Shown here piece after piece: positions 9,002-52,489 of a stretch of 64,000 nt of DNA. Both the position numbers and the translations under genes were made by a program. Below the pieces are notes generated by a model. It was given only the letters and a program-made list of their open reading frames with translations. It ran no database searches and had not been told where the DNA came from. The DNA is from Ketogulonicigenium vulgare WSH-001 (lineage in GTDB: Bacteria; Pseudomonadota; Alphaproteobacteria; Rhodobacterales; Rhodobacteraceae). The DNA lies in contig NC_017384.1 in NCBI RefSeq assembly GCF_000223375.1, positions 558,001 through 622,000 of the forward strand. Direction: 5' to 3'. Positions within the stretch are counted from its first letter, which is position 1. Each line of letters starts with the position of its first letter.

Positions 9002-9114
9002 CTAAAGAGCCATTGTGCCGGTTTGGCACTTGCTGCATTTTTGCGCGAAGTTACGGGTCGGTGTTTGTTTTCTCATCGCTATTCATCTTCCGCCTTGGTT
9101 TTCAGCAGCGGCCC

Positions 9115-9145
9115 TTGACCCGATACGTCTCGTAAATGCTAGATT
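9115..9145 (+). promoter_or_regulatory. Candidate promoter of the pyrimidine-degradation operon
   Basis: TTGACC at 9115-9120 and TAGATT at 9140-9145 are spaced by 19 bp, longer than optimal. The RutR-type operator starts 4 bp after the -10 hexamer, a placement suited to steric repression. The promoter call rests mainly on this arrangement. Confidence 0.35.
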
Positions 9146-9148
9146 CAC

Positions 9149-9164
9149 TTTACCGTTTGGTCAA
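9149..9164. promoter_or_regulatory. RutR-type operator
   Basis: TTTACCGTTTGGTCAA matches the known RutR box TTGACCAnnTGGTCAA at 12 of 14 defined positions, with the right half-site perfect. It lies in the spacer between the TetR gene and hyuC, 76 bp before the hyuC start codon. Confidence 0.7.
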
Positions 9165-9239
9165 ATCGCTTGGCCCGCAGCCGGACCCTGTAGCGTTACA
9201 GCGACTGCGTGGAACGACACAGAATTCAAGGAACTATCT

Positions 9240-36148: not shown

Positions 36149-37159
36149 TTAAATGGCGGTAACCGTGCCGCCCGGCAACAGGGTCGATCCTTGCATCACG
36201 GTCAATACGGGCGCGGCGGGATCGGCCAGACGGCGCAGCAATGCATTTGCCACTTCACGCCCCAGCGCGGCACGGTCGACATGCATTGTGGTCAGGCTGG
36301 GTTTTGTCATCTGGCTCCACGCGAGGCTGTCAAAACCGCTGACAGATAGATCGCCAGGCACCGATAGCCCAGCATCGCGCGCGGCCTGGATCAGGCCCAT
36401 CGCCACCAGATCATTGACGCAGATCGCCACAGACCACGCGGGCCGCCCCTTGGCGAACAGGGCGGTGAAATAGTCAAAGGCGGTTTCCTGACGGTCGTGG
36501 TCCAGTGCGATCAGCGTGGCGCTGGCATCCGGGACATCGGCCAATGCCTCGTGCATCCCCTGTTGCCGCCGCTGGGAACTGGGGCGGCTGGGGGCAAAGA
36601 CGAAGGCGGTCTTGCGATGGCCAAGGCCCAGAATATGGCGCACCATCAGCCGTGCGCCCGCACGATCATCGGCCATGACCGCATCGAACCGCATCTCGCC
36701 ATCGCGGTTGAACACCTGCACGAAGGGGCCGGTCTGTTGCAGATATTGCATCAGTTCGGCATCGGGGCGGGCGTAAAAGATGACTGTGGTGGTCGAGCCG
36801 ATGCTGTCGTGGATCTCGCGCAGTTGCGCCGCCGTCACATCGCGTTCCATGATCAGATGCGGAAACAGCCGCAGGCCGCTTTCCAGCGCTGCGGCCTGAA
36901 AGCCGTCAAACGTCTCTTGAAAGATCTGATGCAAGCCGCCGGTCACCGGGTTCATCGGCAAGATCACCGCGACGCGCTGCGCGTCATTGCCCGCCGGATG
37001 GTCATAGCCCAGGCTATAGGCGATGGACATGATCCGCTCGCGCAGCTCGGGTCTGATCCCCGGCGCACCCGATAGCGCGCGCGAGACCGTGCTGATACTG
37101 ACATCCGCCTGGCGGGCGATATCGGATTGATTGATCTTACGGTCGGGCATGTTTGGCAT
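36149..37159 (-). CDS. LacI-family transcriptional regulator
   Basis: 336 residues from the ATG at 37159, preferred because GGGAG lies 5 bp upstream. The HTH is NQSDIARQADVSISTVSRAL (residues about 11-30) with the hinge helix after it, and the periplasmic-binding-protein-like sensor domain follows. The palindrome ATTGCGCAAT (37194-37203) lies 35 bp upstream of its start, and near-identical TTTGCGCAAA sites lie at the divergent promoter of the catabolic locus (42675-42684). It probably represses both itself and that locus until the substrate or a derivative binds. Confidence 0.9.
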   Translation of the reverse strand: MPNMPDRKINQSDIARQADVSISTVSRALSGAPGIRPELRERIMSIAYSLGYDHPAGNDAQRVAVILPMNPVTGGLHQIFQETFDGFQAAALESGLRLFPHLIMERDVTAAQLREIHDSIGSTTTVIFYARPDAELMQYLQQTGPFVQVFNRDGEMRFDAVMADDRAGARLMVRHILGLGHRKTAFVFAPSRPSSQRRQQGMHEALADVPDASATLIALDHDRQETAFDYFTALFAKGRPAWSVAICVNDLVAMGLIQAARDAGLSVPGDLSVSGFDSLAWSQMTKPSLTTMHVDRAALGREVANALLRRLADPAAPVLTVMQGSTLLPGGTVTAI

Positions 37160-37193
37160 GACCACTCCCTACAGATAAGCGCCCACCTTGCCA

Positions 37194-37203
37194 ATTGCGC
37201 AAT
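37194..37203. promoter_or_regulatory. Candidate LacI autoregulatory operator
   Basis: ATTGCGCAAT is a perfect 10-bp palindrome with the central CG usual for LacI operators, within the 59-bp gap between the MFS stop and the lacI start. An overlapping AATGCGCAAA follows at 37201-37210. It shares TTGCGCAA with the sites at 41994 and 42675. Confidence 0.6.
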
Positions 37204-37218
37204 GCGCAAAGGGCGGGT

Positions 37219-38442
37219 CTATTCGGCAATAATTCCCCGCTTTGCCGTGGCGAACTGGCGCGAGAGGACAACCAGCACCGCCATCATCAGCGCGCAGCCC
37301 AGCGTGAAGGTTTGGCTGAGGCCCAAGCGGCTGGCCAGTGCGCCCATGCCGATGGCGCCAAGGGCGGGTGCGACGCGGAATGTCATGCCGAACAGGCCCA
37401 TGATGCGGCCGCGCATCGCCTCAGGCGCGGTGACCTGCAGTGCGGTTTGGATCGAGACGCCGCCCGCTGCAATCGCGCCGCCATAAAACCCGGCGGCAAT
37501 CAGTGCCACCGGGGTCGAGGCGGACCACCCCAGTCCCAGCCCCGCCAGCGTTGCAATCCCGGTTCCCACAAACGACAGCCGCACCACGCCGCGGATGCCG
37601 CCGACCATATTCGTCAGCCCCGCCACAATCGCGCCAAGACCCATGGCGGAGCTGAGCTGCGCCAAGGTGCGCGCATCACCACCCAGGCGTAGATCGGCAA
37701 GCTCGGGCAACAGCTCGCCAATCGGGCGCAGGAACAGCGCGGCGCTGGCAAAGATGATAAACATCGGCGCGCAGGCGGGCGAGGCCATGATATAGTGGAA
37801 CGCCTCGGCCAGACCGTTGATAATGCCCTTTTGTCCGGTCATCCGTACAGTGGGGCGGAAGCGGACAAGGAACAGGCCGAGCAGGCTGAACACCATCACC
37901 AATGCGACGCTGCCATAGCTGGCCTGAATGCTGGCGCCTGCAATGATGATGCCCGAAATCGCCGGTCCGATAAAACGCGAGACGTTGAACAGGATCGAGC
38001 TGATCGAGACGGCGGTGCCCATTTGCGGCCGGTCCGTCACCGCGCCGACCGCTGCGTGATGGGCGGGCTGCGACAGGCCTGCAATAATCCCGTTCGTCAT
38101 CATGATCGCACAGAGCAGCCAGACACTTGCCAGTCCCATGCCCACCATGGCCGCCGTGCTGACCATCAGCACGACCGAGGCCATGGTGGATGCCATCAAG
38201 ATCCGCCGCAAATCCAGCCGATCCGCCAATTGTCCGGCCCATGGCCCGACCAGCATCGCCGGGATCATATCCGCCGCCACGACAATGCCGACCCAGGCGG
38301 TATCATGCGTCAATTGCCATGCGTGCCAGCCGCTGGTGGTGCGCAGCATCCAATAGGCCAGCGAACTTGCCAGCGAGGATAGGGTGAACAGCACAAAGCT
38401 GGGGTTGCGCATCAATGTGCGAAAGTCTTGCCGGAGGGCCAC
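37219..38442 (-). CDS. MFS transporter (MFS_3 / EntS-like)
   Basis: 407 residues with about 11-12 membrane helices. The N-terminal SLASSLAYWMLRTTSGWHAWQLT and the PWAGQLADRLDLRRIL loop are typical of the MFS_3 group that includes EntS-like exporters. It lies 24 bp after the D-threonine-aldolase-like gene and is likely the last gene of the minus-strand arm of the LacI locus. It may export a pathway intermediate or import a related compound. Confidence 0.88.
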   Translation of the reverse strand: MALRQDFRTLMRNPSFVLFTLSSLASSLAYWMLRTTSGWHAWQLTHDTAWVGIVVAADMIPAMLVGPWAGQLADRLDLRRILMASTMASVVLMVSTAAMVGMGLASVWLLCAIMMTNGIIAGLSQPAHHAAVGAVTDRPQMGTAVSISSILFNVSRFIGPAISGIIIAGASIQASYGSVALVMVFSLLGLFLVRFRPTVRMTGQKGIINGLAEAFHYIMASPACAPMFIIFASAALFLRPIGELLPELADLRLGGDARTLAQLSSAMGLGAIVAGLTNMVGGIRGVVRLSFVGTGIATLAGLGLGWSASTPVALIAAGFYGGAIAAGGVSIQTALQVTAPEAMRGRIMGLFGMTFRVAPALGAIGMGALASRLGLSQTFTLGCALMMAVLVVLSRQFATAKRGIIAE

Positions 38443-38466
38443 GACAGGCTCCTGAAATGGGGGTGT

Positions 38467-39522
38467 CTATCGCGTAGCGCCGCGCGCCGAGACTTGCCAG
38501 ATGTCTTGCACCCCGTCGCCGCGAACCACGGTGATTGTGTCATGCAGGTTACTGACCGGACAGACATGGTTCGGTATGATGCGGATTTTTTCACCGATCT
38601 TGGGCGCAGGCAAGGCAGGGTCGATACGGACGATGCCATGTTCCTCGGTCAGGCGTTCGATCACCGCATCGGGGTAGTCACGTAGGTAACCATAGCCCGG
38701 ATGCGCCGCGCCGCTGAGGTCACTGGTCAGGGTTTTCGTGCCTGCGTCAATGATGAAATGGCCGGGCTTGGGCGTGCTGATGACGGTGGCAATGACATGC
38801 AGGGCGCAATCGTCAACGCTCGCCGCGCCGGCTGCGATCATATTGCGGTCGTTATAAATATAGGTGCCAACCCGCAGTTCATCGACGCCGCCAAGGCTAT
38901 GGGTCTGATAGGCCTTGGGCGAGCCGCCGACGGACAGGGGAGGCACGTCCAGCCCCTGGGCCCGCAGCAGCGGCTTTAGCGCCGCCATGAACGTCACCGT
39001 CTGCGCGCTGGCGGGATAGGTCATCAGCCCCGCAAGGCGCAGGCCGGGGGTGGCCAGCACCTGTTGCATCAGCGCAAGCGCAGCCTCTGGCGCGACAACG
39101 CCGGTACGGCCCATGCCGCTGTCGAATTCGACCAAAATGCCAATCTCGGCCCCCGCAATCGCGGCGGCGGCAGCGGCGGTTTCAATCGCCATCGGGCTAT
39201 CGGCGGCGACGGTAAAGCGCGCTTTGCCTGCCAGCGCGCCGAGCCGCGCCGCCTTTTGCGGCCCGATCATCGGATAGGAAATCAGAATATCACTGGCACC
39301 GCTGCCCAGCATCGCCTCGGCCTCGGTCAGCTTTTGACAAGTGATGCCGGCGGCGCCCAGATCCAGCTGCATCTGTGCCAAGGCATTGATCTTATGCGTC
39401 TTGATATGCGGGCGCAGGCGGATGCCATGGGCGTCGCAATAGTCCTGCATCCGCTTCAGATTGGCTTCTACGATGGTCAGATCAACGATGACGCCGGGGG
39501 TCTCGATCTCTTGCCAGCTCAT
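38467..39522 (-). CDS. D-threonine aldolase / 3-hydroxy-D-aspartate aldolase-like PLP enzyme
   Basis: 351 residues of the fold-type III alanine-racemase-like D-TA family. The PLP lysine is Lys41 in RPHIKTHK, the substrate barrel contains EFDSGMGRTGV and YPASAQ, and the C-terminal metal-binding pair is in PNHVCPVSNL (His and Cys). These enzymes split D-beta-hydroxy-amino acids to glycine (or another amino acid) and an aldehyde, or dehydrate them. It overlaps the ABC ATPase by 4 bp. Which hydroxy-D-amino acid it acts on is unknown. Confidence 0.88.
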   Translation of the reverse strand: MSWQEIETPGVIVDLTIVEANLKRMQDYCDAHGIRLRPHIKTHKINALAQMQLDLGAAGITCQKLTEAEAMLGSGASDILISYPMIGPQKAARLGALAGKARFTVAADSPMAIETAAAAAAIAGAEIGILVEFDSGMGRTGVVAPEAALALMQQVLATPGLRLAGLMTYPASAQTVTFMAALKPLLRAQGLDVPPLSVGGSPKAYQTHSLGGVDELRVGTYIYNDRNMIAAGAASVDDCALHVIATVISTPKPGHFIIDAGTKTLTSDLSGAAHPGYGYLRDYPDAVIERLTEEHGIVRIDPALPAPKIGEKIRIIPNHVCPVSNLHDTITVVRGDGVQDIWQVSARGATR

Positions 39523-40595
39523 GCCTGTACCTCGGGGATGCGCAGGCCCGTCTCGCGGTCGAACAGGTGTAGTTTGCCGGGGGCTGCGGTCACGCGCAAT
39601 TGGGTGTTATCGGCAATGGCCGTGCGTTCGCGGAACATCATCGTCGCAGCCGCCCCACCAAGCGTGCCATAAACATAGGTGTCCGAGCCGGTCTGCTCGA
39701 CAATCGTGCTGGTGAAGTTCAGACCCTCGTCTGCGGTCACTTGCAAATGCTCGGGCCGGATGCCGATGGTCAGGGTCGCGCCTTCGCGCAGATGATAGCC
39801 AGCGGGCAAGGGGATCGCACCGGCGCTGGCGTCATCCATCACGATCTGGCCGTGCGTATAGGTTGCAGGCAGCATATTCATCGCAGGCGATCCGATAAAG
39901 CCGGCAACGAAAGTGGTCTGCGGGCGGTCGAACAGGTCCAGCGGTGTGCCCACCTGCTCGATCCGGCCCGCGTTCATCACCACGACACGGTCGGCGAGTG
40001 TCATCGCCTCGATCTGGTCATGGGTGACATAGATGGATGTCGTGCCGACCTTTTTATGCAGGGCCTTGATCTCCGTGCGCATCTGCACGCGTAGCTGTGC
40101 GTCCAAGTTGGACAAAGGCTCGTCATAAAGGAACAGGCTGGGGGCGCGCACGATCGCGCGGCCCATCGCCACGCGCTGGCGTTGCCCGCCCGAAAGCTGA
40201 CGCGGAAAACGGTCGAGGTAAGGGGTCAGGTTCAGCACGCCCGCCGCCCAATCGACCTTGCGCGCGATCTCATCAGCAGGTTCGCCGCGCAGTTTTTGGC
40301 CATAGCTGATATTGTCGCGCACGTTCAGATGCGGGAACAAAGCATAGGATTGAAACACCATCGCGATATTGCGCTTTTGCGGCGGCACATCGTTATACAG
40401 CTTGCCGCCCACGACCATATCGCCCGATGTCAGATCCTCAAGGCCCGCAATCATCCGCAGCAGCGTGGATTTCCCGCACCCCGAAGGGCCGACCAGCACG
40501 ACGAATTCGCCCTCAGAAATTTTCAGGTCGATCCCGTGCAGCACGTTATAGGCGCCATAGGATTTGGTGATTTTATCAAGTGTGAGATCAGCCAT
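39519..40595 (-). CDS. CUT1-type ABC transporter ATP-binding protein (UgpC/MalK-like)
   Basis: 358 residues: nucleotide-binding domain (Walker A GPSGCGKST at 36-44, signature LSGGQRQRVAMGRA, Walker B LFLYDEPLSNLD) plus a C-terminal TOBE/OB regulatory domain from about residue 240. This is the CUT1 ATPase class. The matching binding protein and permeases are on the other arm at 42765-45798, separated by the divergent promoter. The start is one base after the SDR stop. It energises uptake of the locus substrate. Confidence 0.92.
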   Translation of the reverse strand: MADLTLDKITKSYGAYNVLHGIDLKISEGEFVVLVGPSGCGKSTLLRMIAGLEDLTSGDMVVGGKLYNDVPPQKRNIAMVFQSYALFPHLNVRDNISYGQKLRGEPADEIARKVDWAAGVLNLTPYLDRFPRQLSGGQRQRVAMGRAIVRAPSLFLYDEPLSNLDAQLRVQMRTEIKALHKKVGTTSIYVTHDQIEAMTLADRVVVMNAGRIEQVGTPLDLFDRPQTTFVAGFIGSPAMNMLPATYTHGQIVMDDASAGAIPLPAGYHLREGATLTIGIRPEHLQVTADEGLNFTSTIVEQTGSDTYVYGTLGGAAATMMFRERTAIADNTQLRVTAAPGKLHLFDRETGLRIPEVQA

Positions 40596-41384
40596 TTAGC
40601 CCTCCAACGTCAGTTCTTTGGCCATCTGATGGTTGCCGGCCATCAGCCCGCCATCCACCGGAATGATCGCGCCCGAGATGAAGGCCGCACCCTCGGATGC
40701 AAGAAAGGTGATCGGTTTCGCGATATCTTCGGGAGAGGCGACGCGGCCCAGCGGATACCAGCGTTTCAGCCCGTCCATGACATCGGGCTTGCGCGCAAGA
40801 CGGCTGTCCCATGCGGGGGTGCGCACGGTGCCGGGGGCGATCATATTGGCGCGGATATTATGTGGCCCGTATTCGGTCGCCATGGTGCGCACCAAACTGA
40901 CCAGCGCGCTTTTTGCGGCGCTATATCCCGGCTGCCCGAAGGTCGCGAGGCCGTTGACGGAGCCCACAACCGTGATCGAGCCGCCCAGCGCCTTCAGATC
41001 ATCAATTGCGGCATAGATCGTGTTGAACTGGCCGCCGACGTTATCTGCAACCTCGGTGCGGAACACGTCGGGCGTGGATTTGTCCATCGTGGTGGTCGAC
41101 CCGCCGGTATTGGCGTTGGCGACGACGATGGAAATCGGACCAAGCTTGGCCCGCGCCGCATCGACGGCGGACTTTACAGCCGCGGCGTCGCGAATATCGG
41201 CGGCGGCACCGGCAACCTCGAACCCTTCGGCTTGCAATTTGGCGACGGCGGCCTCGACCGCCTCGGCCTTGATATCCATCAAGATCACCTTGGCGCCTTC
41301 GGCCAGAAAATCGCGCACGATGGCCGTGCCAATTCCGCCCACCGCACCGGTGACCAGCGCAACTTTACCTTCCAGCAGTTTCAT
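40596..41384 (-). CDS. Short-chain dehydrogenase/reductase
   Basis: 262 residues. The Rossmann glycine motif is GAVGGIG (13-19), followed by NANTGG, catalytic Ser142 in GSVNGLA, and Tyr154/Lys158 in YSAAK. The C-terminal SGAIIPVDGG motif is the standard SDR ending. It oxidises or reduces an alcohol or carbonyl with NAD(P). It overlaps the cysteine-rich gene by 4 bp and is followed at once by the ABC ATPase, so it belongs to the same transcript. The substrate is presumably a sugar-like or hydroxy-acid intermediate. Confidence 0.92.
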   Translation of the reverse strand: MKLLEGKVALVTGAVGGIGTAIVRDFLAEGAKVILMDIKAEAVEAAVAKLQAEGFEVAGAAADIRDAAAVKSAVDAARAKLGPISIVVANANTGGSTTTMDKSTPDVFRTEVADNVGGQFNTIYAAIDDLKALGGSITVVGSVNGLATFGQPGYSAAKSALVSLVRTMATEYGPHNIRANMIAPGTVRTPAWDSRLARKPDVMDGLKRWYPLGRVASPEDIAKPITFLASEGAAFISGAIIPVDGGLMAGNHQMAKELTLEG

Positions 41385-42595
41385 TCACTCTCTCCTGTCA
41401 AGACCGCGCGCGGTTCAATCGCCCCAAGGGATCTGCCGATCCGCTCGACGCCTGCGCGTCGCATATGTCCGTAATTGTAAAAGCCGAAATCGCGGATACC
41501 GCTGTCGGCCATGGTTTTGATCGTGCCCGCAAAGCTGCCCTCGGACCGGTGTTCGGGCGAGGTGGGCCGCAGCACCACGCGCATATCGCTATGGCCGATC
41601 TGGCGCTTGACGGCGGCCACATCGGTCATCACGCGATCGGCAGGGGCATAGAAACAGACCTCTAGCCCATCGGCGGCGCGATCAATGGCGGCAAGGTCCG
41701 TGCCCTCAATCCATGACAGCGCCAGGGGCTGGTTGACCGATGGGATGACATGGACGGCGGCGTCCTTGCGCACCTCGGCGCGGATTTGCGCGATCAGCGA
41801 TGTGACCACCGTGCAGCGCCAGCGCATAAATGCCGCCAGATCAGCATCGAACAGCAGCTCGGTTTCCAGCCATTGGCGGTCGGTCGGGGCGAAGGGCTCG
41901 ACTTCCGCAGACAGGCTTTCATTGACGCGGGCCATGACACGGGTCTGCAAATTTTCTACATCAATGCCCGCAAGTTTTGCACAACTTTTGCAATTTGCGC
42001 AAAAACATAGCCCTAAATAAAATTCGGCGCGGGGCGACTCGCCGATCAGCGCGAATTCGTGATGGTAACCATGGCGGAATGGCAGCCAGCCGGGCGTCTC
42101 GAGGGTCAGGCCTTTGATGTCATATTGCGCCGCAAGCTGGGTGCACAGCGTCACCGCATAGTCGCGCGCCGCGGGCGAGGAGGGGCACAGGCTGTAGATC
42201 AGCCCGTCGCCAAAGGCGTTGCGCGTGATGCTGTCGGGGTGCTGCGCGCCGATACGGCTGTTGTGCATCAGTACGGCCCAGGCTGTGACGTCCAGCGCGC
42301 TGTTCTGGCAAAAATCAGCAAAAACGTTGTTTTCTTGGGCTAATTTTCCGATCTCTGGTTTGATCGTGCCGAATTTCGCATCGTCGATCTGACAGTGCAG
42401 CACGCCATCCTCGGGGAAATAGACTTTGCCAGAGGTGCCATGTGGCCGCGTGAATTTGCCTGCGTGATAGGCGGCGGCGATGGTGATTGTGTTCAGCCGC
42501 GCGCGCGCGAATTCCTGGTCCAATGCGCCGGGGTCCGATTCGGCCAAGTCCCACGTATAGGCATAAAGGGCGCGATAGGCTCGGGGGCTGGTCAT
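41381..42595 (-). CDS. Unrecognised cytoplasmic Cys-rich protein, possibly glycosidase-like
   Basis: 404 residues from the ATG at 42595; a longer frame to 42655 would cross an operator-like site. There is no signal peptide. Features seen: an aromatic N-terminus (LYAYTWDLAES), GLTLETPGWLPFRHGYHHEF near 162-181, a Cys-rich CFCANCKSC (197-205), and a C-terminal FYNYGHM. The layout recalls putative TIM-barrel glycosyl-hydrolase-like families that carry a similar Cys motif, but I cannot assign it. It heads the minus-strand arm of the LacI locus and overlaps the SDR gene by 4 bp. Confidence 0.75.
   Translation of the reverse strand: MTSPRAYRALYAYTWDLAESDPGALDQEFARARLNTITIAAAYHAGKFTRPHGTSGKVYFPEDGVLHCQIDDAKFGTIKPEIGKLAQENNVFADFCQNSALDVTAWAVLMHNSRIGAQHPDSITRNAFGDGLIYSLCPSSPAARDYAVTLCTQLAAQYDIKGLTLETPGWLPFRHGYHHEFALIGESPRAEFYLGLCFCANCKSCAKLAGIDVENLQTRVMARVNESLSAEVEPFAPTDRQWLETELLFDADLAAFMRWRCTVVTSLIAQIRAEVRKDAAVHVIPSVNQPLALSWIEGTDLAAIDRAADGLEVCFYAPADRVMTDVAAVKRQIGHSDMRVVLRPTSPEHRSEGSFAGTIKTMADSGIRDFGFYNYGHMRRAGVERIGRSLGAIEPRAVLTGESE
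41994..42003. promoter_or_regulatory. Intragenic LacI-type palindrome
   Basis: TTTGCGCAAA, identical to the intergenic site at 42675-42684, lies inside the Cys-rich gene (codons 198-201), about 680 bp from it. It could be an auxiliary operator for looping or a chance effect of Phe-Cys-Ala-Asn codons. Confidence 0.35.
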
Positions 42596-42627
42596 AACAA
42601 CGTCCGCTTGCTGATTTCTGGATTCGA

Positions 42628-42637
42628 TTTGTGCAAA
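42628..42637. promoter_or_regulatory. Second candidate LacI operator, minus-strand side
   Basis: TTTGTGCAAA differs by one base from TTTGCGCAAA. It lies 33 bp upstream of the start codon of the minus-strand arm, where it could block that promoter. Confidence 0.45.
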
Positions 42638-42674
42638 ACTTCGCATATGTTGCAAGGCTAGGCATGATTTTCGA

Positions 42675-42684
42675 TTTGCGCAAA
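42675..42684. promoter_or_regulatory. Principal candidate LacI operator
   Basis: TTTGCGCAAA is a perfect palindrome with a central CG, located between the divergent arms and 9 bp upstream of a TTGACA -35 element. It shares TTGCGCAA with the palindrome upstream of the LacI gene itself. Confidence 0.65.
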
Positions 42685-42692
42685 CAAATTTA

Positions 42693-42722
42693 TTGACAGG
42701 CGCAAAACCGCAAACCTAGCCT
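42693..42722 (+). promoter_or_regulatory. Promoter of the plus-strand ABC/catabolic operon
   Basis: A perfect -35 TTGACA (42693-42698) is followed, after 18 bp, by TAGCCT (42717-42722). The spacer contains GGCGCAAAACCGCAAA, partial copies of the operator sequence. The binding-protein start codon is at 42765, with an AGGAG just before it. Confidence 0.5.
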
Positions 42723-42764
42723 GAGACATAATCAAAAGAAGACCCATCCCAACAGGAGAACACC

Positions 42765-44000
42765 ATGACCCCTCGTCTGACCAAACCCGTGCTGGGTCGG
42801 TCGCTGACCTCTGCCGCCGCGCTGTCGCTGGTGGCGGGGGCGGCCTTTGCCGACACTGTGCGCGTGACCATTCCCGAATACAGCGCCAATACGATGCCCT
42901 ATTTTCAGGCCGCTGCCGCTGATTTCATGGCTGCCAACCCGGACACCACGATTGAACTGGAAATGGTGCCTTGGGCCTCGCTGCAGCAAAAGCTGGTGAC
43001 GGATATCTCGGGCGGGGTGAATTCCGACCTTGCGGTGATCGGCACGCGCTGGATCTTGGATTACGCGGAACTGGGCGTGATCGAGCCGCTGGACAGCTAT
43101 ATCACCCCAGATTTCGCGGGCCGTTTCTTTGACGTGTTCCTGACGCCTTCGATCATCGACGGCACCAATTACGGCCTGCCGATCGCCGCATCCGCCCGTG
43201 CGATGTTCTATAATACCGATATTCTGGCGGCTGCCGGCTATGATGCGCCGCCCGCGACATGGGAAGAAATGCTCGAGGTGGCGCGCGCCATCCGCGCCAG
43301 CAATCCCGATGTCATTCCCTTTGGTCTGCAGGGCAAATCGACCGAGACCGACGTCTATTTCTATTACCCGATGTGGAGCTATGGCGGCGAAATCCTGACC
43401 GATGGCGCCAGCGGCGTGAACACCGAAGCGGGCCTGACCGCGCTGACCACCTATCAAACCATGATCAACGAGGGGCTGACCCAACCGGGCGTCACCGATT
43501 ACGCCCGCGCCGATATCGAGAACCTGTTCAAACAGGGCCGCTCCGCCTTTGTCATCACCGGGCCGTTCCTGTCGAACCAATTGGCCGAGCAAGCGCCCGA
43601 TCTAAACTATGGTATCGGCCGTGTGCCTGCGGGCACCACAACCGCCACCTATGGCGTGACCGATTCCATCGTCATGTTCGCGAATTCGGATGTGAAGGAC
43701 GAGGCTTGGGCCTTTCTTGATTTCCTGTTCACCACCGACCAACGCGTGAAATTCGACGAGGCCGAGGGCTTTTTGCCCGTGAACGTTGAAGAGGCCGCAC
43801 AGCCGCAATTCGCCGATAACGAGGACCTAAAGGTCTTTACCGAACTGCTGGCCAACGCCCAATTCGCGCCGCTGGTCGGCGGTTGGGAAGAGATCGCCGA
43901 TGCGACCATCACTCAGTTGCAGTCGGTCTACCTTGGCCAAACCACGCCCGAAGCTGCCTTGGCCGCGATCGAGGCCAGCGTGAACGCCATCCTGCCGTAA
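42765..44000 (+). CDS. CUT1-type ABC transporter substrate-binding protein
   Basis: 411 residues with a signal peptide ending near AFA-DT (residue 28). The mature protein has the SBP_bac_1/UgpB-like pattern (RVTIPEYSANTMPYFQAAA, then MVPWASLQQKLVTDISGG). AGGAG precedes the start. It is the periplasmic receptor of the LacI locus and the first gene of the plus-strand arm. Family members bind sugars, glycerol-phosphate diesters or other polyols. The ligand here is unknown; the downstream enzymes suggest it contains amide-linked or amino groups. Confidence 0.92.
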   Translation: MTPRLTKPVLGRSLTSAAALSLVAGAAFADTVRVTIPEYSANTMPYFQAAAADFMAANPDTTIELEMVPWASLQQKLVTDISGGVNSDLAVIGTRWILDYAELGVIEPLDSYITPDFAGRFFDVFLTPSIIDGTNYGLPIAASARAMFYNTDILAAAGYDAPPATWEEMLEVARAIRASNPDVIPFGLQGKSTETDVYFYYPMWSYGGEILTDGASGVNTEAGLTALTTYQTMINEGLTQPGVTDYARADIENLFKQGRSAFVITGPFLSNQLAEQAPDLNYGIGRVPAGTTTATYGVTDSIVMFANSDVKDEAWAFLDFLFTTDQRVKFDEAEGFLPVNVEEAAQPQFADNEDLKVFTELLANAQFAPLVGGWEEIADATITQLQSVYLGQTTPEAALAAIEASVNAILP

Positions 44001-44011
44001 CTGGCCCAAGG

Positions 44012-44031
44012 TCAGGGCGCTCGCGCCCTGA
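44012..44031 (+). terminator. Intercistronic hairpin after the binding-protein gene
   Basis: TCAGGGCG and CGCCCTGA form a perfect 8-bp stem with loop CTCG. There is no T-run, so it probably stabilises the upstream mRNA and lowers permease expression relative to the binding protein. Confidence 0.55.
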
Positions 44032-44054
44032 TCCCCCAACTGCAGGACGAAAAG

Positions 44055-44966
44055 ATGACCGCAGCTACTGCTATACCGACGCGCAAACCACCCGCCCACC
44101 GGCTGACCGCGCCTTACCTGTTGATCGCGCCTTCATTCTTGCTGGCGGCCTTCATCGTTTTTTATCCGCTTTATGCGCTAATCAATACGTCGATGCGGTC
44201 GGTAAACCGCTTTGGCATGATCCAAGGCCTGAATGATTTTGCCAATTACACCGCCGTTTTTGCCGATCCGCAGTTTCAGGCAGCGGCCTGGCGATCGCTG
44301 GTCTGGACGGGCGCGATCATCGTCGGGACGATCATCATCTCGATGGGCGTCGCGCTGCTGCTGAACCGCAAATTCCATGGCCGCGCGCTGGCGCGGGTCA
44401 TTGTGATCCTGCCATGGTCGGTCTCGCTGTCGCTGCTGACGGTGGTGTGGCGCTGGGCGCTGAACGCCGAATCCGGCCTGCTGAATCACCTGCTGATGCA
44501 GCTGCATATCATCGATGCGCCGGTGGTCTGGCTCGGTAACGGGCAGATCGCCTTTACCGTGCAGATCGTCATCGGGATTCTGGTCTCGATCCCGTTCACA
44601 TCCTCGCTGCTGCTGGGCGGGCTGTCGTCGCTGCCCAGCGATATCTATGAGGCCGCCGAGATGGAGGGCGCCACCCCCTGGCAGCAGTTTTGCACCATCA
44701 CCCTGCCGCTGATGCGTCCGTTCCTGAATATCGCGGTCGTGCTGAACATGATCAACGTGTTCAACTCTTTCCCGATCATCTGGATTCTGACCGAAGGCGG
44801 CCCCGCGAATTCCACTGATATTCTGGTGACTTACCTTTACAAGATCGCTTTCAAATACGGCAAGCTGGGCGAGGCCTCGGTCGTCTCGCTGCTGATGATC
44901 GTCTTTTTGCTGATCTGTTCGGTCATCTATCTGCGCCTGATCTCAAAGGAGCAGTCCAATGCGTAA
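44055..44966 (+). CDS. ABC transporter permease (UgpA/MalF-like)
   Basis: 303 residues with six membrane helices and a BPD_transp_1 domain. The EAA loop, IYEAAEMEGATPWQQFCTITL, is near residue 200. The N-terminus precedes the first helix at about residue 20, as in UgpA. It pairs with the permease whose start overlaps its last 8 bp, and with the ATPase on the opposite arm. It forms half the inner-membrane channel. Confidence 0.93.
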   Translation: MTAATAIPTRKPPAHRLTAPYLLIAPSFLLAAFIVFYPLYALINTSMRSVNRFGMIQGLNDFANYTAVFADPQFQAAAWRSLVWTGAIIVGTIIISMGVALLLNRKFHGRALARVIVILPWSVSLSLLTVVWRWALNAESGLLNHLLMQLHIIDAPVVWLGNGQIAFTVQIVIGILVSIPFTSSLLLGGLSSLPSDIYEAAEMEGATPWQQFCTITLPLMRPFLNIAVVLNMINVFNSFPIIWILTEGGPANSTDILVTYLYKIAFKYGKLGEASVVSLLMIVFLLICSVIYLRLISKEQSNA

Positions 44967-45798
44967 TCGTATAACGTTCAAAGCCTCGGCCCTGACATGG
45001 CTGTTGCTGGCGCCGCTGGTCGTTGCGAACCTGTTTCCCTTTGCGGTGATGATCTCGACCGCGCTGACGCCGGGCGATGTGGTGCTGTCGGGGCAGACAC
45101 GCTGGGTGCCGGTGCGCCTTGCCTGGAACAACTTTACCGAAATGTGGGTCACCACCGGCTTTGGTCAGGCGCTGGCGAATTCGATGATGGTTGCGGTGAT
45201 GACGACGCTGCTGACGATCCTCGTCTCGGTCCCCGCCGCCTATGCGATGTCGCGGATGCCGTTCAAAGGGATGACGGGCTTTCGCATCTTCATGCTGGTG
45301 ACGCAGATGTTCTCGCCGGTGGTGCTGGTCATTGGCCTGTTCACGCTGATGGTCCAGATGCGGATGCTGGATTCGCTGCCCGTCCTGGCGGTGCTGTATT
45401 GCTGTTTCCACATCGCCGTCGCGATCTGGATGTTGCAAAGCTATTTCGCCTCGATCCCGATCGAGCTGGAACATGCGGCCTGGCTGGAGGGAGCTAGCAA
45501 GTTCCACACGCTGCGCACCGTTTTCATGCCACTGGCGGCGCCCGCGACTGCGGTTGTCGCGCTGTTCACCTTTATCGGCGCGTGGAACGAATATGCGCTG
45601 GCGCTGGCGCTGCTGCGATCCGCCGAGAATTACACCTTGCCACTGCGCATCTCGGCCCTCAGCGGTGGGCGCTATCAGATCGAATGGCATTACGTGATGG
45701 CCGCGACATTCGTGGCGACGATCCCGGTATCGGTGATCTTTATCTGGCTGCAACGCCACCTGATTTCCGGCCTCGCAGGCGGGGCGGTCAAAGGCTGA
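44959..45798 (+). CDS. ABC transporter permease (UgpE/MalG-like)
   Basis: 279 residues with six membrane helices. The EAA loop is IELEHAAWLEGASKFHTLR near residues 170-188, and the C-terminus ends with the typical short RHLISGLAGGAVKG. It is the second half of the channel. It overlaps the first permease by 8 bp, and AAAGGA just after it serves the RidA gene 11 bp downstream. Confidence 0.93.
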   Translation: MRNRITFKASALTWLLLAPLVVANLFPFAVMISTALTPGDVVLSGQTRWVPVRLAWNNFTEMWVTTGFGQALANSMMVAVMTTLLTILVSVPAAYAMSRMPFKGMTGFRIFMLVTQMFSPVVLVIGLFTLMVQMRMLDSLPVLAVLYCCFHIAVAIWMLQSYFASIPIELEHAAWLEGASKFHTLRTVFMPLAAPATAVVALFTFIGAWNEYALALALLRSAENYTLPLRISALSGGRYQIEWHYVMAATFVATIPVSVIFIWLQRHLISGLAGGAVKG

Positions 45799-45809
45799 AA
45801 GGAAAGACC

Positions 45810-46196
45810 ATGCCAAAAACCATTGAATATTTGACATTTGCGGGCGCAACCGGCGGCTCGCCCCTCAGCCCGGCTGTGCGCACTGGCGATTTCGTCTGGG
45901 TCTCGGGGCAGATCCCGGCGGGCGCGGATGGCGTGATTGTCGGGCACGAGATCACCGCCCAAACCAAGCAGGTCATGGCCAATATCGAGAAGGCACTGGC
46001 GCTGGCGGGCTGCACGCTGGACGACATTTGCAAGACCACCGTCTGGCTGCAGGACGCCCGCGACTTTCGCGCCTTTAACACCACCTATGCCGGCTTTTTC
46101 ACCAAAGGTCTGCCCGCCCGCACCACCAGCGAGGCGCGGCTGATGGCCAACATCCTGATCGAAATCGAAGCCGTGGCGTATAAGCCGCAGGACTAA
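45810..46196 (+). CDS. RidA/YjgF-family reactive-imine deaminase
   Basis: 128 residues, full RidA length, from the ATG at 45810 with AAAGGA 6 bp upstream. The trimer-interface pattern is present: VWVSGQIPAG, KALALAGCTLDDICKTTVWL and Arg104 in LPARTTSEAR, the residue that binds the carboxylate of the substrate; Glu120 follows. RidA hydrolyses enamine/imine intermediates released by PLP enzymes such as the D-threonine-aldolase-like protein of this locus. It is within the plus-strand operon, suggesting the pathway makes a reactive aminoacrylate-like intermediate. Confidence 0.92.
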   Translation: MPKTIEYLTFAGATGGSPLSPAVRTGDFVWVSGQIPAGADGVIVGHEITAQTKQVMANIEKALALAGCTLDDICKTTVWLQDARDFRAFNTTYAGFFTKGLPARTTSEARLMANILIEIEAVAYKPQD

Positions 46197-46229
46197 AGGC
46201 GCGCAAGTGCCAAGGAAGGAAAGAATAAA

Positions 46230-47441
46230 ATGTCGCAAATTCAGGGTCGTAAATACGATCTGGTGCTGAAAGGCGGCCATCTTTTGGATGCGCGCAACGG
46301 CATCGACGACAAGCGCGATATCGCCATTTTGAACGGCAAGATCGCCGCTGTGGCTGAAAGCCTTGATCCCGCAGGGGCGCGCGTGCGCGATATGGCGGGT
46401 TGCTATGTGATGCCCGGCCTGATCGACATCCACACCCATGTCTATCACAAGGCGACCTCTCTTAGTGTTGACCCCGATATGATCTCGCGCCGCTCTGCCA
46501 CGACGACCTTGGTCGATGCGGGGTCGGCGGGTGCGGGCAATTACGACGGCTTTCGTGACTTTGTGATGAAGCAGTCCGATTACCGTATCCTCGCTTTCCT
46601 TAACATTTCCTTTCCGGGCATTTTTGGCTTTGACCACAATCTGTTCATCGGCGAGGCGACATTGGCCGAAATGCTGCCCGTCGACCGCTGCATCGCCAAG
46701 ATCGAGGCGAACCGCGACAAGATCGTCGGTGTAAAGGTGCGCATCGGCGGCCCCGCGACCGGTCGCCTTGGCCTTGGCGCGCTGGAGTTGGCGCTCGAGG
46801 CGGCCGAGGCTGTCGGCCTGCCGCTGATGACCCATATCGGTGGCCCGCCGCCCAGCTATGCCGAGGTGGTCGCGATGCTGCGGCCCGGCGATATCCTGAC
46901 CCATTGCTATCGCCCCGATCCAAATTCGGCGCTGGGCGCTGATGGGCAATTGCTGCCCGAGGTGCAGGCCGCCCGCGAGCGCGGTGTGTTGTTTGATATC
47001 GCCCACGGTATGGGGGCCTTTGGTTTCGAAGTGGCCGAGAAATCTTTGGCCTTGGGGTTCAAGCCCGACCTGATTTCCAGCGATGTGCATGTCGTCAGTC
47101 TGGGCGGCCCTGGCTATGATCTGCTGCATACGATGAGCAAGCTGCTGAACTGCGGTATGTCTGTGGCCGAGGTTGTCGCGGCCTCCGCGAATGCGCCCGC
47201 GCTGGCGGTGCGTCGGCCGGAACTCGGCCATTTGGGTGTCGGCGCGATTGCCGATATCACCGCGCTGCAGGTCGTGGACGCCGGTTTCACCTTTACCGAT
47301 GTGCGCGGGCAGACGCGCAAGGGCGATCGCCTGTTCCATCCGATGGCGGTTTATCAGGCCGGGCGCGAGGCGGAAATCGCGCGGCGCACCTTTGAAGAGC
47401 CGTTCTTTCATCTGCAACCCTGCGCCTGCGGAGGGCATTGA
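46230..47441 (+). CDS. EF_0837-type amidohydrolase (dihydroorotase/D-aminoacylase-like)
   Basis: 403 residues. The metal-binding motif GLIDIHTHVY has His68 and His70; Lys169 in GVKVRIGG is the likely carbamylated bridging lysine; His residues follow in THIGGPPP and THCYRPDP, and the catalytic Asp in SSDVHV. This is the amidohydrolase/deacetylase family typified by EF_0837, whose relatives deacetylate N-acyl substrates or act near amino-acid-derived acids. An AAGGAAAG lies before the start. The stop overlaps the cutC start (TGATG). Confidence 0.88.
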   Translation: MSQIQGRKYDLVLKGGHLLDARNGIDDKRDIAILNGKIAAVAESLDPAGARVRDMAGCYVMPGLIDIHTHVYHKATSLSVDPDMISRRSATTTLVDAGSAGAGNYDGFRDFVMKQSDYRILAFLNISFPGIFGFDHNLFIGEATLAEMLPVDRCIAKIEANRDKIVGVKVRIGGPATGRLGLGALELALEAAEAVGLPLMTHIGGPPPSYAEVVAMLRPGDILTHCYRPDPNSALGADGQLLPEVQAARERGVLFDIAHGMGAFGFEVAEKSLALGFKPDLISSDVHVVSLGGPGYDLLHTMSKLLNCGMSVAEVVAASANAPALAVRRPELGHLGVGAIADITALQVVDAGFTFTDVRGQTRKGDRLFHPMAVYQAGREAEIARRTFEEPFFHLQPCACGGH

Positions 47442-48190
47442 TGCCATTGGTCGAAATTTGCGTCGAAAACGTCGACGAGGCATTGGCCGCCGAGGCCGCG
47501 GGCGCGGACCGGATCGAGCTTTGCGCGGCGCTCGGGACCGAAGGGGGGATCACCCCCTCGGTCGGATTGGTGCAGGTGGCGCAGACCTATCTGGAACAGG
47601 TGCTGATCTATCCGATGGTGCGCCCGCGCGGCGGCGATTTCGTGTATACAGCATCGGAATTTGAATCGATGCTGGGCGATATTTCGGCCTTTCGCGCAGC
47701 TGGCATACCCGGTGTGGTGGCCGGTTGCCTGATGCCGGACGGCACCATTGATCTCGACCGGATGCGGGCGATTGTGGCGGCGGCGGGCGGGATGGATGTC
47801 ACCTGTCACCGCGCCTTTGACATGACCCGTGACCCGTTTGAGGCGCTCGAGGCGCTGATCGCCGCCGGTGTCAGCCGCGTCCTGACCACCGGCCAACAGG
47901 CGCGCGCTGCGCTGGCGCTGCCGCTGCTGCAGAATCTGATCCGCGCCGCGCGCGGGCGGATCATCATTCTGGTCTGCGGTGATCTGACCCCCGCTGATAT
48001 CGACCCCGATGGCACGCTGGCAGGCGGTTACGAGTTCCATTTTGGCGCCGGAAAACAGGTCGATAGCCCGATGATCTATCGCAATCCCGCCGTCTTCATG
48101 GGCAAGGATGCCGAAAGCTCTGAATTCACCCGCCGTGTGGCGGATGAACAGGCGCTGCAGCACAAGATTGCGGCGGCAAAGGGCCTATGA
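47441..48190 (+). CDS. cutC: CutC-family TIM-barrel protein
   Basis: 249 residues. The CutC pattern is clear: LVEICVENVDEALAAEAAGADRIELC is split across the first 35 residues, then GGITPSVGL, YPMVRPRGGDFVY, and the DVTCHRAFDMTRDP block. The family was named for copper homeostasis, but the direct biochemical role is unsettled, and it often sits beside carbohydrate genes. Here it ends a catabolic operon, overlapping the amidohydrolase by one base, which argues for an enzymatic role. It overlaps the convergent ATPase by 6 bp. Confidence 0.93.
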   Translation: MPLVEICVENVDEALAAEAAGADRIELCAALGTEGGITPSVGLVQVAQTYLEQVLIYPMVRPRGGDFVYTASEFESMLGDISAFRAAGIPGVVAGCLMPDGTIDLDRMRAIVAAAGGMDVTCHRAFDMTRDPFEALEALIAAGVSRVLTTGQQARAALALPLLQNLIRAARGRIIILVCGDLTPADIDPDGTLAGGYEFHFGAGKQVDSPMIYRNPAVFMGKDAESSEFTRRVADEQALQHKIAAAKGL

Positions 48191-48901
48191 GGCCAGCAAA
48201 TGCTGTCCGTAGTCACTGGTCAGCGCGCGGGCTTTCAGCGCGCTGACATCGGCCATCTCCTGCACCTCGCCGTGGCGCAGCACGGCCAAACGGTCGCAAA
48301 GGAAAGACACGACCGACAGGTCATGCGCCACCAGCAGATAGGTCAGCCCGCGCGATTGGCGCAGGGATTTCAGCAGATTCAAGATCTCGGCCTGCACCGA
48401 GACATCCAGCGCCGAGGTCGGCTCGTCCAGCAGCAGGATCTGCGGCTCTAGCATCAGGGCGCGGGCGATCGCGACGCGCTGGCGCTGGCCGCCCGACAGT
48501 TGGTGCGGCAGGCGAAAGCGGAAATGCGCCCCAAGGCCGACGGCTTGCAGCACATCGCTGATCCGCTCCTCGCGCCGGTCCATTTTGTGGATCTGCAGCG
48601 GCTCCATCAGCGTGGCATGGACGGTTTTGCGCGGATGCAATGAGCCATAGGGGTCCTGAAACACCATCTGCATCAGGCGGGGACCGGCGCGCATCTTGCC
48701 GTTTTCCGCGATCTTATCCGCGACGGTCATCTTGCCGGTCCAGCTATCCACTTGCCCGGCCAGCGCTTTCAGCACCGTCGACTTGCCCGAGCCGCTTTCA
48801 CCGACCAGCGCGAAACTTTCGCCCCGCGCGATATCCAGGTTCATGCCTTTGACGACGCGGGTCTCGCCATAGAAAATATCAAGGTTGTCCAGACGGATCA
48901 T
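48185..48901 (-). CDS. Peptide-type ABC transporter ATPase (DppF/OppF-like)
   Basis: 238 residues, shorter than usual for DppF because the C-terminal oligopeptide HPY domain is missing. Walker A is GESGSGKST (34-42), Q-loop FQDPYGSLHPR, signature LSGGQRQRV, and Walker B LLLDEPTSALD. It starts 4 bp inside the first ATPase (ATGA), forming the standard pair of peptide ATPases. Its 3' end overlaps cutC. Confidence 0.92.
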   Translation of the reverse strand: MIRLDNLDIFYGETRVVKGMNLDIARGESFALVGESGSGKSTVLKALAGQVDSWTGKMTVADKIAENGKMRAGPRLMQMVFQDPYGSLHPRKTVHATLMEPLQIHKMDRREERISDVLQAVGLGAHFRFRLPHQLSGGQRQRVAIARALMLEPQILLLDEPTSALDVSVQAEILNLLKSLRQSRGLTYLLVAHDLSVVSFLCDRLAVLRHGEVQEMADVSALKARALTSDYGQHLLAS

Positions 48902-49734
48902 TTGACGCCCTCCAGCATGGCGCGATCAAGAACGGGCAGCACGTCGCGTGTCTCGTCCAGTTGCGGCTGCGAGGCGAGCAGCCCGCGCGTATAGGGATGT
49001 TGGGCCTGATCCAGCGCGCCCGCCGCGCATTCCTCGACAATCTTGCCCTGATACATGACCAGAACGCGATCGCACCAGCGCGAGACCATGCCAAGGTCGT
49101 GGCTGATCATCAACAGGCCCATGCCGCGGCGGCGCACCAGATCATCCATGATCTCCAACACTTGGCCGCGCACGGATACATCAAGCGCCGAGGTCGGCTC
49201 GTCCGCGATCAGCAGGGCGGGCTCCATAATCACCATCATGGCGATCATGACGCGCTGCCCCATGCCGCCCGAGACCTCGTGCGGATAAAGTTTCGCGACA
49301 CGCTCCGGGTCGTGAATGCGCACCGATTCCAGCGCGGCGATGACGCGGGCGTGGCGTTCCTTGCGGGTGAATTTGCCGTGGAAGGACAGCACTTCACCAA
49401 TCTGCGCGCCGATGGTCATCACCGGGTTCAGCGAGAATTTCGGGTCCTGCATGATCATCGACATCTGCATCCCGCGCAGATGCCGCAGCTTTGATTCGGG
49501 TTGGCCCAGGATGTCTTGGCCCTTGAATGTCAGCCGATCTGCGGTGACGCGGCCGGGGGGCGGGATCAGCCCCATCATGGCGCGCCCGGTCATGGATTTG
49601 CCCGAGCCGCTTTCGCCCACAATGCCGACCCGCTCGTTCCCGACGGACAGCGAGATGCCTTTGACGACCTCGACCATGCCCGTCTCTGACGGGAAGGCGA
49701 CGCGCAGGTTCTGAACTTCGATCAGAGTGCTCAT
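48898..49734 (-). CDS. Peptide-type ABC transporter ATPase (DppD/OppD-like)
   Basis: 278 residues from the ATG at 49734, the start that yields a proper ABC N-terminus (TLIEVQNLRVAFPSETGM). Upstream frame only reads through the permease. Walker A is GESGSGKSM, Q-loop MQDPKFSLNP, signature EVSGGMGQRV, Walker B LIADEPTSALD, then a partial oligopeptide C-terminal tail. It overlaps both its neighbours by 4 bp. Signature Gly-Gly-Met-Gly-Gln deviates slightly from the common SGGMRQR. Confidence 0.92.
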   Translation of the reverse strand: MSTLIEVQNLRVAFPSETGMVEVVKGISLSVGNERVGIVGESGSGKSMTGRAMMGLIPPPGRVTADRLTFKGQDILGQPESKLRHLRGMQMSMIMQDPKFSLNPVMTIGAQIGEVLSFHGKFTRKERHARVIAALESVRIHDPERVAKLYPHEVSGGMGQRVMIAMMVIMEPALLIADEPTSALDVSVRGQVLEIMDDLVRRRGMGLLMISHDLGMVSRWCDRVLVMYQGKIVEECAAGALDQAQHPYTRGLLASQPQLDETRDVLPVLDRAMLEGVK

Positions 49735-50636
49735 CCTTTGGTCTTTCCTTTGGGGTCCAGAATATCGCGCAGCCCGTCGCCAAAGAAACAAAAGCCAAGG
49801 CTGACGATGACGATGGCAAGGCCGGGCATGGTGGCGACCCACCATTGGTCGATGATGAAATCCCGCCCGCGCGAGATCATCGCCCCCCATTCGGGCAGGG
49901 GCGGCTGTGCGCCAAGGCCGATAAAGCCAAGCCCCGCCGCCGTCAGAATGATCCCCGCCATATCCAGCGAGGCGCGCACGATGGTCGATGACAGGCACAT
50001 CGGCAGGATATGCTGAAAGATCACGCGGATATGCGAGGCACCCTGCATGCGTGCGGCGGTGATGAAATCGGCACCGCGCAGCGTGATCGCCTCGGCTCGC
50101 GCGATACGGGCATAGACCGGCCAGCTGGTGATGGCGATGGCGATCACCGCGTTCTGAATGCCCGGCCCCAGCGCGGCGACAAACGCCAGCGCAAGGATCA
50201 GGCGGGGCAGGGACAGGAAAATATCGGTGACGGCCATCAGCACGCGATCCCACCAACCGCCCAAATAGCCCGCAGCCGCGCCCAAAATCAGACCGATCGG
50301 CGCAGAAATCACCGCCACCATCACGACGATGGTCAGCGTGATGCGCGCCCCAAAAATCACGCGGGAATAGATGTCGCGGCCGAGCTCATCCGTGCCCATC
50401 CAATGGCTGGTCGAGGGCGGCAGCAGGCGCTGCGACAGCGTGCCAAACAGCGGGTTATGCGTCGCAAGCAGTGGGGCGAATGCCGCAACCAGCAGCAGGA
50501 TCAGAATGATGACCGCGCCCACCATCGCCAGCGGATTGCGGCTAAAGGCGCGCGCCATGCGGTAAGCTTGGCCCAGCCGGAACTGAACCATGTTTTCGGG
50601 CGTCTCGGACAGCAACCATTCGCGTCGTGTTGTCAT
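49731..50636 (-). CDS. Peptide-type ABC transporter permease (DppC/OppC-like)
   Basis: 301 residues from the ATG at 50636, which has AAGGGGG upstream. An OppC-type N-terminal membrane helix (about 36-58) is followed by the BPD_transp_1 core with GTDELGRDIYSRVIFGAR, the DppC signature, and EAA loop RAEAITLRGADFITAARMQG. It pairs with DppB, 10 bp upstream, in the inner membrane. Confidence 0.94.
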   Translation of the reverse strand: MTTRREWLLSETPENMVQFRLGQAYRMARAFSRNPLAMVGAVIILILLLVAAFAPLLATHNPLFGTLSQRLLPPSTSHWMGTDELGRDIYSRVIFGARITLTIVVMVAVISAPIGLILGAAAGYLGGWWDRVLMAVTDIFLSLPRLILALAFVAALGPGIQNAVIAIAITSWPVYARIARAEAITLRGADFITAARMQGASHIRVIFQHILPMCLSSTIVRASLDMAGIILTAAGLGFIGLGAQPPLPEWGAMISRGRDFIIDQWWVATMPGLAIVIVSLGFCFFGDGLRDILDPKGKTKG

Positions 50637-50646
50637 ACCTGCCCCC

Positions 50647-51693: not shown

Positions 51694-51755
51694 CTGGCGA
51701 TCATCCTATTCTCCGATAAGGGCGGCAGGCGCGAAATTTTATATGTCTGATTTCG

Positions 51756-51788
51756 TTTGACGATGTGATTTATTTTGATACCGTCAAA
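51756..51788. promoter_or_regulatory. Inverted repeat, candidate XRE-cupin operator
   Basis: TTTGACG (51756-51762) and CGTCAAA (51782-51788) form a 7-bp perfect inverted repeat with 19 AT-rich bases between, centre to centre about 26 bp. It lies between the divergent permease and regulator genes. The regulator's binding there is inferred from position. Confidence 0.5.
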
Positions 51789-51820
51789 GAAATTTTACCA
51801 GACCTTTACGTGGGAATGTC

Positions 51821-52474: not shown

Positions 52475-52489
52475 TAACAGGAGAGGGTT

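Follow-up and report, generated by a model that had tools for sequence, protein, structure and literature searches.

A LacI-controlled, divergent twelve-gene locus of Ketogulonicigenium vulgare with a putative role in oxidative breakdown of N-acetylated amino sugars

The window studied here is a stretch of 64,000 nucleotides of Ketogulonicigenium vulgare WSH-001 (contig NC_017384.1, positions 558,001 to 622,000), and its region 36149-48190 carries twelve genes in two divergent arms. On balance, we favour the view that this cassette is a LacI-controlled pair of catabolic operons for an N-acetylated 2-amino-2-deoxy sugar, which would be broken down oxidatively in the manner of a D-amino acid.

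Gene content and candidate operators

From the centre outward, the minus arm begins with cysGH for a Cys-rich protein (41381-42655), followed by genes for a short-chain dehydrogenase/reductase (SDR; 40596-41384, PF13561), an ATP-binding cassette (ABC) ATPase of the UgpC type for a CUT1-type importer (39519-40595; NF008653, 489.9 bits against a cut-off of 432), a fold-type III pyridoxal 5'-phosphate (PLP) enzyme (38467-39522; PF01168 and PF14031), a major facilitator superfamily (MFS) transporter (37219-38442) and, as the last gene, a LacI-family repressor (36149-37165; PF00356 and PF13377). The plus arm consists of genes for the solute-binding protein of the importer (42765-44000; PF01547), permeases A (44055-44966) and B (44959-45798; both PF00528), a RidA-family protein (PF01042, E 2.2e-28), the amidohydrolase AmiH (46230-47441) and a CutC-family protein (47438-48190; PF03932, E 7.1e-59). 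Neighbouring genes of one arm overlap or are separated by at most 54 bases. The original prediction of a LacI-controlled, divergently transcribed catabolic locus was borne out: every gene that it named is present, and six other alphaproteobacterial genomes, two metagenome-assembled ones of Maritimibacter and four Martelella genomes, carry these twelve genes in an identical order (loci L002, L004, L006, L007, L008 and L014, hereafter window-type loci), in all of which the repressor gene keeps its position. One correction concerns the RidA gene, which is located at 45807-46196 within a longer open reading frame (ORF).

The MFS protein has its best match in MFS_3 (PF05977, E 5.8e-36) and also matches efflux-type models below their cut-offs, and so it may be an exporter; its gene is present in six of the 80 cysGH loci described below. 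The cutC gene is also present in six of these loci, all of the window type. Right after cutC, at 48185-54076, there are peptide-type ABC genes, with ATPase and permeases encoded on the minus strand and a binding protein of family 5 on the plus strand.

Two candidate LacI operators, TTTGTGCAAA (42628) and TTTGCGCAAA (42675), span 42628-42684 near the divergent starts of both arms, and a TTGCGCAA core is found between the arms in all six other window-type loci. Judged from the sequence, this arrangement fits a single repressor for both arms that would act at these sites. A further copy of this 10-mer is found within cysGH, both in the window (at 41994) and in L002, L006, L007 and L008, and conserved codons of F-C-A-N-C (read by eye) account for it. 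If cysGH starts at TTG 42655, the first candidate operator would lie in the cysGH reading frame. This start is uncertain: 65 of the 80 relatives align only from residue 20-31, which would fit a start at Met21 (about 42595), and the other 15 align further upstream, including the window-type L004 from residue 1 and L006 from residue 8.

The cysGH family and its neighbourhoods

The original prediction took the cysGH product for a Cys-rich unrecognised protein. It indeed matches nothing in Pfam or NCBIfam over cut-off (no NCBIfam match at E 0.01), and its sequence matches in the PDB are at chance level, but an AlphaFold2 model of high confidence (mean pLDDT 90.5, pTM 0.90; residues 1-20 under 50) gives a (beta/alpha)8 barrel that is glycosidase-like and contains Cys157 and Cys217/219/222. 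No export signal was recognised by eye. With regard to GHL10 (PF02638), the window protein scores a weak 16.0 bits, below the cut-off of 27.9; matches at E <=0.1 were obtained for 23 of 64 members, the best of which (E 3.1e-07) might pass the cut-off, and none of ten other members checked singly exceeds the cut-off (best 17.1 bits). Foldseek placed the PgaB C-terminal domain first (E 8.4e-12) together with Cwp19, and then, among others, a fucosidase, GH42 enzymes and a GH156 sialidase; the identities are about 9-15%, and the TM-scores, taken by query length, are about 0.5. The PgaB C-terminal domain (which we take to be GH153), Cwp19 and the GH42 glycosidases thus share the barrel with the cysGH product at the level of fold alone, and we saw no Pfam family in common over cut-off. 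The cysteines follow one another in an order similar to that of the zinc cluster known from GH42.

An alignment of the window protein with those of 63 loci (17 were omitted by choice, including long N-terminal ORFs and near copies) has 38 invariant columns, which include His64, His131, Asn132, Glu186, His195, His198, His199, Glu200, Tyr336, Tyr393 and Asn394. In the model, Glu186 is at the end of strand beta4, which we assume to be the place of the acid/base in clan GH-A. The residue after beta7 is Arg363, where an acid would presumably be the nucleophile of that clan, and hence a standard retaining mechanism is not supported. Four distant paralogues (L105-L108, 26-35% identity) keep all eleven of the listed residues and three of them keep all four cysteines, while Glu317 and Glu332 are not kept and Arg363 is not kept in three. 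These paralogues, two of which (L107 and L108) stand beside genes for an ABC importer, GFO/IDH/MocA and RidA, suggest that the enzyme family is broader and takes other substrates. The cysGH product itself is perhaps, on an even balance, a glycosidase whose substrate is a glycoside of an amino sugar or amino-aldonate.

To describe the neighbourhoods, 80 loci were kept from 83 cysGH relatives found in one scan of named genomes, and genes were counted by tblastn within 8 kb on each side of cysGH; 59 loci are complete on both sides and 21 are cut by the end of the available sequence. The family is rare, with 6 of 398 genomes in a sample of the phylum, the window's own genome counted. The neighbours of cysGH recur: SDR is directly downstream in 63/80 loci (64/80 within 8 kb, the additional one being a distant SDR on the opposite strand in L052), and RidA, a PLP dehydratase and a deacylase are found in 45, 44 and 51 of the 80 loci, or in 38, 38 and 42 of the 59 complete ones. 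By our own arithmetic from the genome of the window (3.28 Mb; PF14031 at three places and PF01042 at ten), a random 17 kb stretch is expected to contain PF14031 in about 1.6% and PF01042 in about 5% of cases. The grouping exceeds chance. The original prediction had named co-occurrence of the homologues elsewhere as its test beforehand; they do co-occur, and the reading survives.

Deacylase, PLP enzyme and downstream enzymes

The PLP enzyme was described in the original prediction as D-threonine-aldolase-like and as a candidate for C-C cleavage. The label is right in that the closest solved relative by sequence is the D-threonine aldolase 4v15 (AxDTA), which shares the fold-type III PLP architecture as does the D-3-hydroxyaspartate aldolase BhcC (6qkb). 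The metal site tells otherwise. By alignment, PLP Lys is Lys41 and the metal ligands are His319 and Cys321 (His319-Val-Cys321), whereas AxDTA, 7dib and BhcC have His-x-Asp at this position; His-x-Cys is the motif of D-threo-3-hydroxyaspartate dehydratase (3wqc), which has a lower overall sequence score to the window enzyme. According to passages of PMC4401734, D-serine dehydratase (3anu, also of lower overall score) and a predicted aldolase/racemase of unproven activity have His and Cys where AxDTA has His and Asp, and both lack His193, the proposed base of AxDTA; the region of His193 is a gap in the window enzyme. The His-x-Cys motif is kept in 13/13 short homologues and in all 14 long homologues sampled from the 29 found. 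Since the site is not His-x-Asp, the window enzyme appears dehydratase-like rather than an aldolase, and C-C cleavage is unlikely. A beta-hydroxy-D-amino acid (aldosaminate) is the predicted substrate of the window enzyme.

A related chemistry was described in 2022 for the oxidative chitin (Ong) pathway of Pseudoalteromonas prydzensis. In the account given in passages of PMC9537276, OngB deacetylates N-acetylglucosaminate (GlcNAc1A), OngC converts glucosaminate into 2-keto-3-deoxygluconate (KDG) and ammonia and also accepts D-serine and D-threonine, the RidA protein OngD is required for growth in a role not known, and KdgK phosphorylates KDG. As far as these passages and those of PMC12017989 go, the window cassette resembles this pathway in having a deacetylase, a fold-type III PLP enzyme that would give a 2-keto-3-deoxy sugar acid, RidA and a dedicated repressor, that is, an amino-sugar acid broken down in D-amino-acid style. 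They differ in AmiH versus OngB, a short BhcC-type PLP enzyme (though with PF14031, PF01168 and His-x-Cys) versus the long D-serine-deaminase type, a CUT1-type ABC importer versus SSS and TonB transporters, and LacI versus RpiR; SDR, cysGH and CutC are extra in the window. No kinase (and thus no KdgK), GH20, RpiR regulator, SSS transporter or TonB receptor is found among the families of the twelve window genes. A plain GlcNAc1A (ong) cluster was rejected for the window, which lacks OngB and has AmiH in place of an OngB-type deacetylase with Ser292 and Gln298, the marks of GlcNAc1A deacetylases in passages of PMC12017989. The statement of the original prediction that no described pathway has this set therefore holds for the exact genes, which differ from those of the Ong pathway, but not for the logic, since the Ong pathway already applies a deacylase, a PLP dehydratase and RidA to N-acetylglucosaminate. 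In our best reading, the cassette is a variant of known oxidative amino-sugar logic that uses different enzymes and is centred on an enzyme family with no assigned function.

That AmiH stands in for OngB is argued chiefly from their exchange within one otherwise similar architecture. Of the 80 loci, 20 have AmiH as the deacylase and 31 have a D-aminoacylase of the OngB type, and no locus has the two together; likewise, a short dehydratase is found in 14 loci and a long one in 30, again without overlap. An NMT1-type importer is encoded in 25 loci, most of them with GFO/IDH/MocA genes, and of these eight have OngB, 13 have AmiH and four have neither. AmiH passes the amidohydrolase/deacetylase model NF006689 (PRK09237; 393.9 bits against 371) and falls below the cut-off of the EF_0837 model TIGR03583 (265.4 bits against 432.15); the nearest solved chain by sequence is 2ogj, and a search of the open-licence literature for Atu3266, EF0837 and acetyl-R-mandelate gave no match. 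AmiH probably fills the place of OngB as an N-acetyl-aldosaminate deacetylase, a specificity that is predicted.

The OngB-type loci also bear on SDR. The full Ser-Ser-Ser...Gln motif, with positions counted from the YPY motif, is present in 4 of 32 such loci (the 31 named and L104), namely L038, L044, L045 and L060 from Andreprevotia lacus, two Chitiniphilus and Chitinolyticbacter albus. All four have a PfkB kinase and no SDR; the PfkB of L045, the only one tested, has KdgK as its best model (338.7 bits, below the cut-off of 400). The other 28 differ in the motif (L061 has Ser without Gln) and all have SDR. Over all loci PfkB is present in 6/80, five of them without SDR, the exception being L064 with a more distant PfkB. 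Presumably, an acid made extracellularly, for example by lytic polysaccharide monooxygenase, would need no dehydrogenase, and SDR would make the acid where the sugar arrives unoxidised.

A kinase of the 2-keto-3-deoxygalactonate kinase family (DGOK) is found in 18/80 loci, all with SDR, an aldolase in 9/80 and GH31 relatives in 11/80. Ten of the GH31 loci have DGOK by tblastn, and in the eleventh, L062 of Lysobacter, the kinase gene clusters with Pfam-confirmed DGOK. The GH31 protein of L068, the only one tested, matches 6m76 (E 7.6e-122) and 7f7r, named GH31 alpha-N-acetylgalactosaminidase (3.2e-121), far ahead of the next GH31 kind (5e-56). In L062 (1198-9923), genes for a TonB receptor, GH31 and a GH109 domain, which we take to be an alpha-N-acetylgalactosaminidase family, stand beside cysGH, which points to alpha-linked N-acetylgalactosamine as the source material. 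By title, no galactosaminate route is apparent in the open-licence literature, where the papers that came up deal with haloarchaeal glycosaminoglycan, prostate glycans, sea-cucumber chondroitin and insect glycosaminoglycan; this is weak evidence of absence. The binding protein of the window is 45-52% identical to those of five betaproteobacterial loci with DGOK and/or aldolase (L048, L057, L067, L069 and L075), and these homologues likely share a related ligand. The sugar is not fixed by this comparison, because the binding proteins of seven loci without DGOK or aldolase match equally (45-54%).

In the window's own genome, KdgK is the best model for a PfkB (223.7 bits, below the cut-off of 400), one gene of the 2-keto-3-deoxy-6-phosphogluconate (KDPG) aldolase family stands beside an Edd-like gene (Edd named by eye), and the DGOK family is represented by a short protein. 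For this reason the evidence leans to a gluco-configured substrate of the window, or to tolerant downstream enzymes. The short DGOK-family protein (231 aa; L090, 5227-5922) is encoded directly after urease accessory genes (by eye), unusual in both length and place.

With regard to CutC, 20 neighbourhoods (L152-L171), one per genome, were chosen from 69 genomes with CutC, 19 of them from the family or class of the window and one from elsewhere in the phylum; the genome of the window contributes its second copy. A ROK-family gene is near CutC at seven places, four times with no more than about 30% identity to the ROK query; three of the seven places also have genes for NagA and an AgaS-type protein, and at three further places CutC has an Asparaginase_2 gene as its immediate neighbour. 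Thus 10/20 have such neighbours and the other 10/20 have none; one NagA is over cut-off, and the AgaS-type and ROK genes are below theirs. For the ROK gene next to the second CutC of the window's genome, the best model is N-acetylglucosamine kinase. According to part of a 2019 paper, loss of the small RNA MicL fully explains why E. coli cutC mutants are sensitive to copper. This explanation and the neighbourhoods together suggest a role of CutC in amino-sugar metabolism. Titles and abstract starts in the open-licence literature gave nothing on a sugar function of CutC, nor any match for COG3142. We also considered CutC as the missing aldolase and found no evidence for or against it.

Proposed route and its alternatives

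The uptake, deacylation, dehydration and enamine clearing of an N-acylated amino sugar envisaged in the original prediction fit the comparative evidence, and the proposed route is as follows. The CUT1-type importer would take up an N-acetylhexosamine, or a small conjugate that contains it, which cysGH would release or process, and SDR, as a putative N-acetylhexosamine 1-dehydrogenase, would oxidise C1 to give the lactone or aldonic acid (N-acetyl-aldosaminate). AmiH would then remove the acetyl group to give a 2-amino-2-deoxyaldonate, that is, a beta-hydroxy D-amino acid, which the PLP enzyme would dehydrate in the manner of D-serine dehydratase. RidA, as a predicted enamine/imine deaminase, would hydrolyse the product to KDG or 2-keto-3-deoxygalactonate (KDGal), and a kinase and KDPG aldolase coded elsewhere in the genome, as Entner-Doudoroff enzymes, would complete the route.

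Several facts weigh against this route. It is a computational proposal, and the loci are related by descent, so that the counts are not independent. Eight of the 59 complete loci have no dehydratase, deacylase or RidA, and L049, L050 and L059 of these have no SDR either; moreover, cysGH stands beside a dehydratase without deacylase or SDR in L047, L054, L070 and L079. Neither a kinase nor an aldolase is encoded in the cassette, and a NagA-like gene (228.7 bits against a cut-off of 225.65) in the window's genome indicates that a classical amino-sugar route may exist. The C1-dehydrogenase role of SDR rests on context, because its closest solved relatives are generic SDRs.

A rather unlikely alternative is that the cassette serves for N-acyl-D-amino acids or conjugates of hydroxy-D-amino acids instead of amino sugars, from which AmiH would free a D-hydroxy-amino acid for dehydration by the PLP enzyme and clearing of the enamine by RidA. 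The OngB-type enzymes that AmiH replaces are relatives of D-aminoacylases, OngC takes D-serine and D-threonine as mentioned above (PMC9537276, in part), and an amino-acid permease gene is near cysGH in several Duganella and Rugamonas loci (9/81, some with dehydratase). However, a CUT1-type importer, a glycosidase-like barrel and SDR speak against such a pathway, as do the DGOK, aldolase and GH31 genes elsewhere, and in L079 of Rugamonas a minus-strand ORF separates the permease and cysGH, so that they need not share an operon. This ORF (8887-9864) has by eye the look of a polysaccharide deacetylase. Redox-assisted glycoside cleavage, in which SDR, or GFO/IDH/MocA in the alphaproteobacterial loci, would oxidise a ring carbon and cysGH would cleave the keto-glycoside, we regard as improbable. 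It would suit the position of SDR downstream of cysGH, the GFO/IDH/MocA genes within 8 kb in 27/80 loci and Arg363 in place of the acid expected for clan GH-A, but it leaves the dehydratase and RidA unexplained, and neither SDR nor GFO accompanies cysGH in L038, L044, L045 and L060. As for cleavage of the C-C bond into glycine and an aldose, the best solved match of the PLP enzyme (4v15) is its support, while Cys321 in place of Asp and the gapped His193 region make it very improbable; we discarded it in view of the His-x-Cys site in the window protein and its homologues, and this branch of the original prediction was not upheld.

Beyond the oxidative amino-sugar route favoured here, a bolder version is tentative, and we think it doubtful as a whole. 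The cysGH loci would represent an undescribed phosphorylation-free oxidative route of N-acetylgalactosamine (via N-acetylgalactosaminate and galactosaminate to KDGal) beside the GlcNAc1A route of chitin degraders, and the window would be its alphaproteobacterial version with deacetylase and dehydratase replaced; cysGH would be a new family of glycosidases for amino-sugar (aldonate) glycosides, and CutC would not be a copper protein but an enzyme for amino sugars.

Finally, if the oxidative reading is true, D-amino-acid-style breakdown of amino-sugar acids would not be only a chitin-oxidation route mainly of Gammaproteobacteria. It would be a modular strategy in Alpha- and Betaproteobacteria with swappable deacylases and dehydratases, probably reaching N-acetylgalactosamine. 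The cysGH family would thereby gain a hypothesis for its function. Taken together with the neighbourhoods of CutC, this reading would also make the function of that protein, so far unsolved, open to testing.

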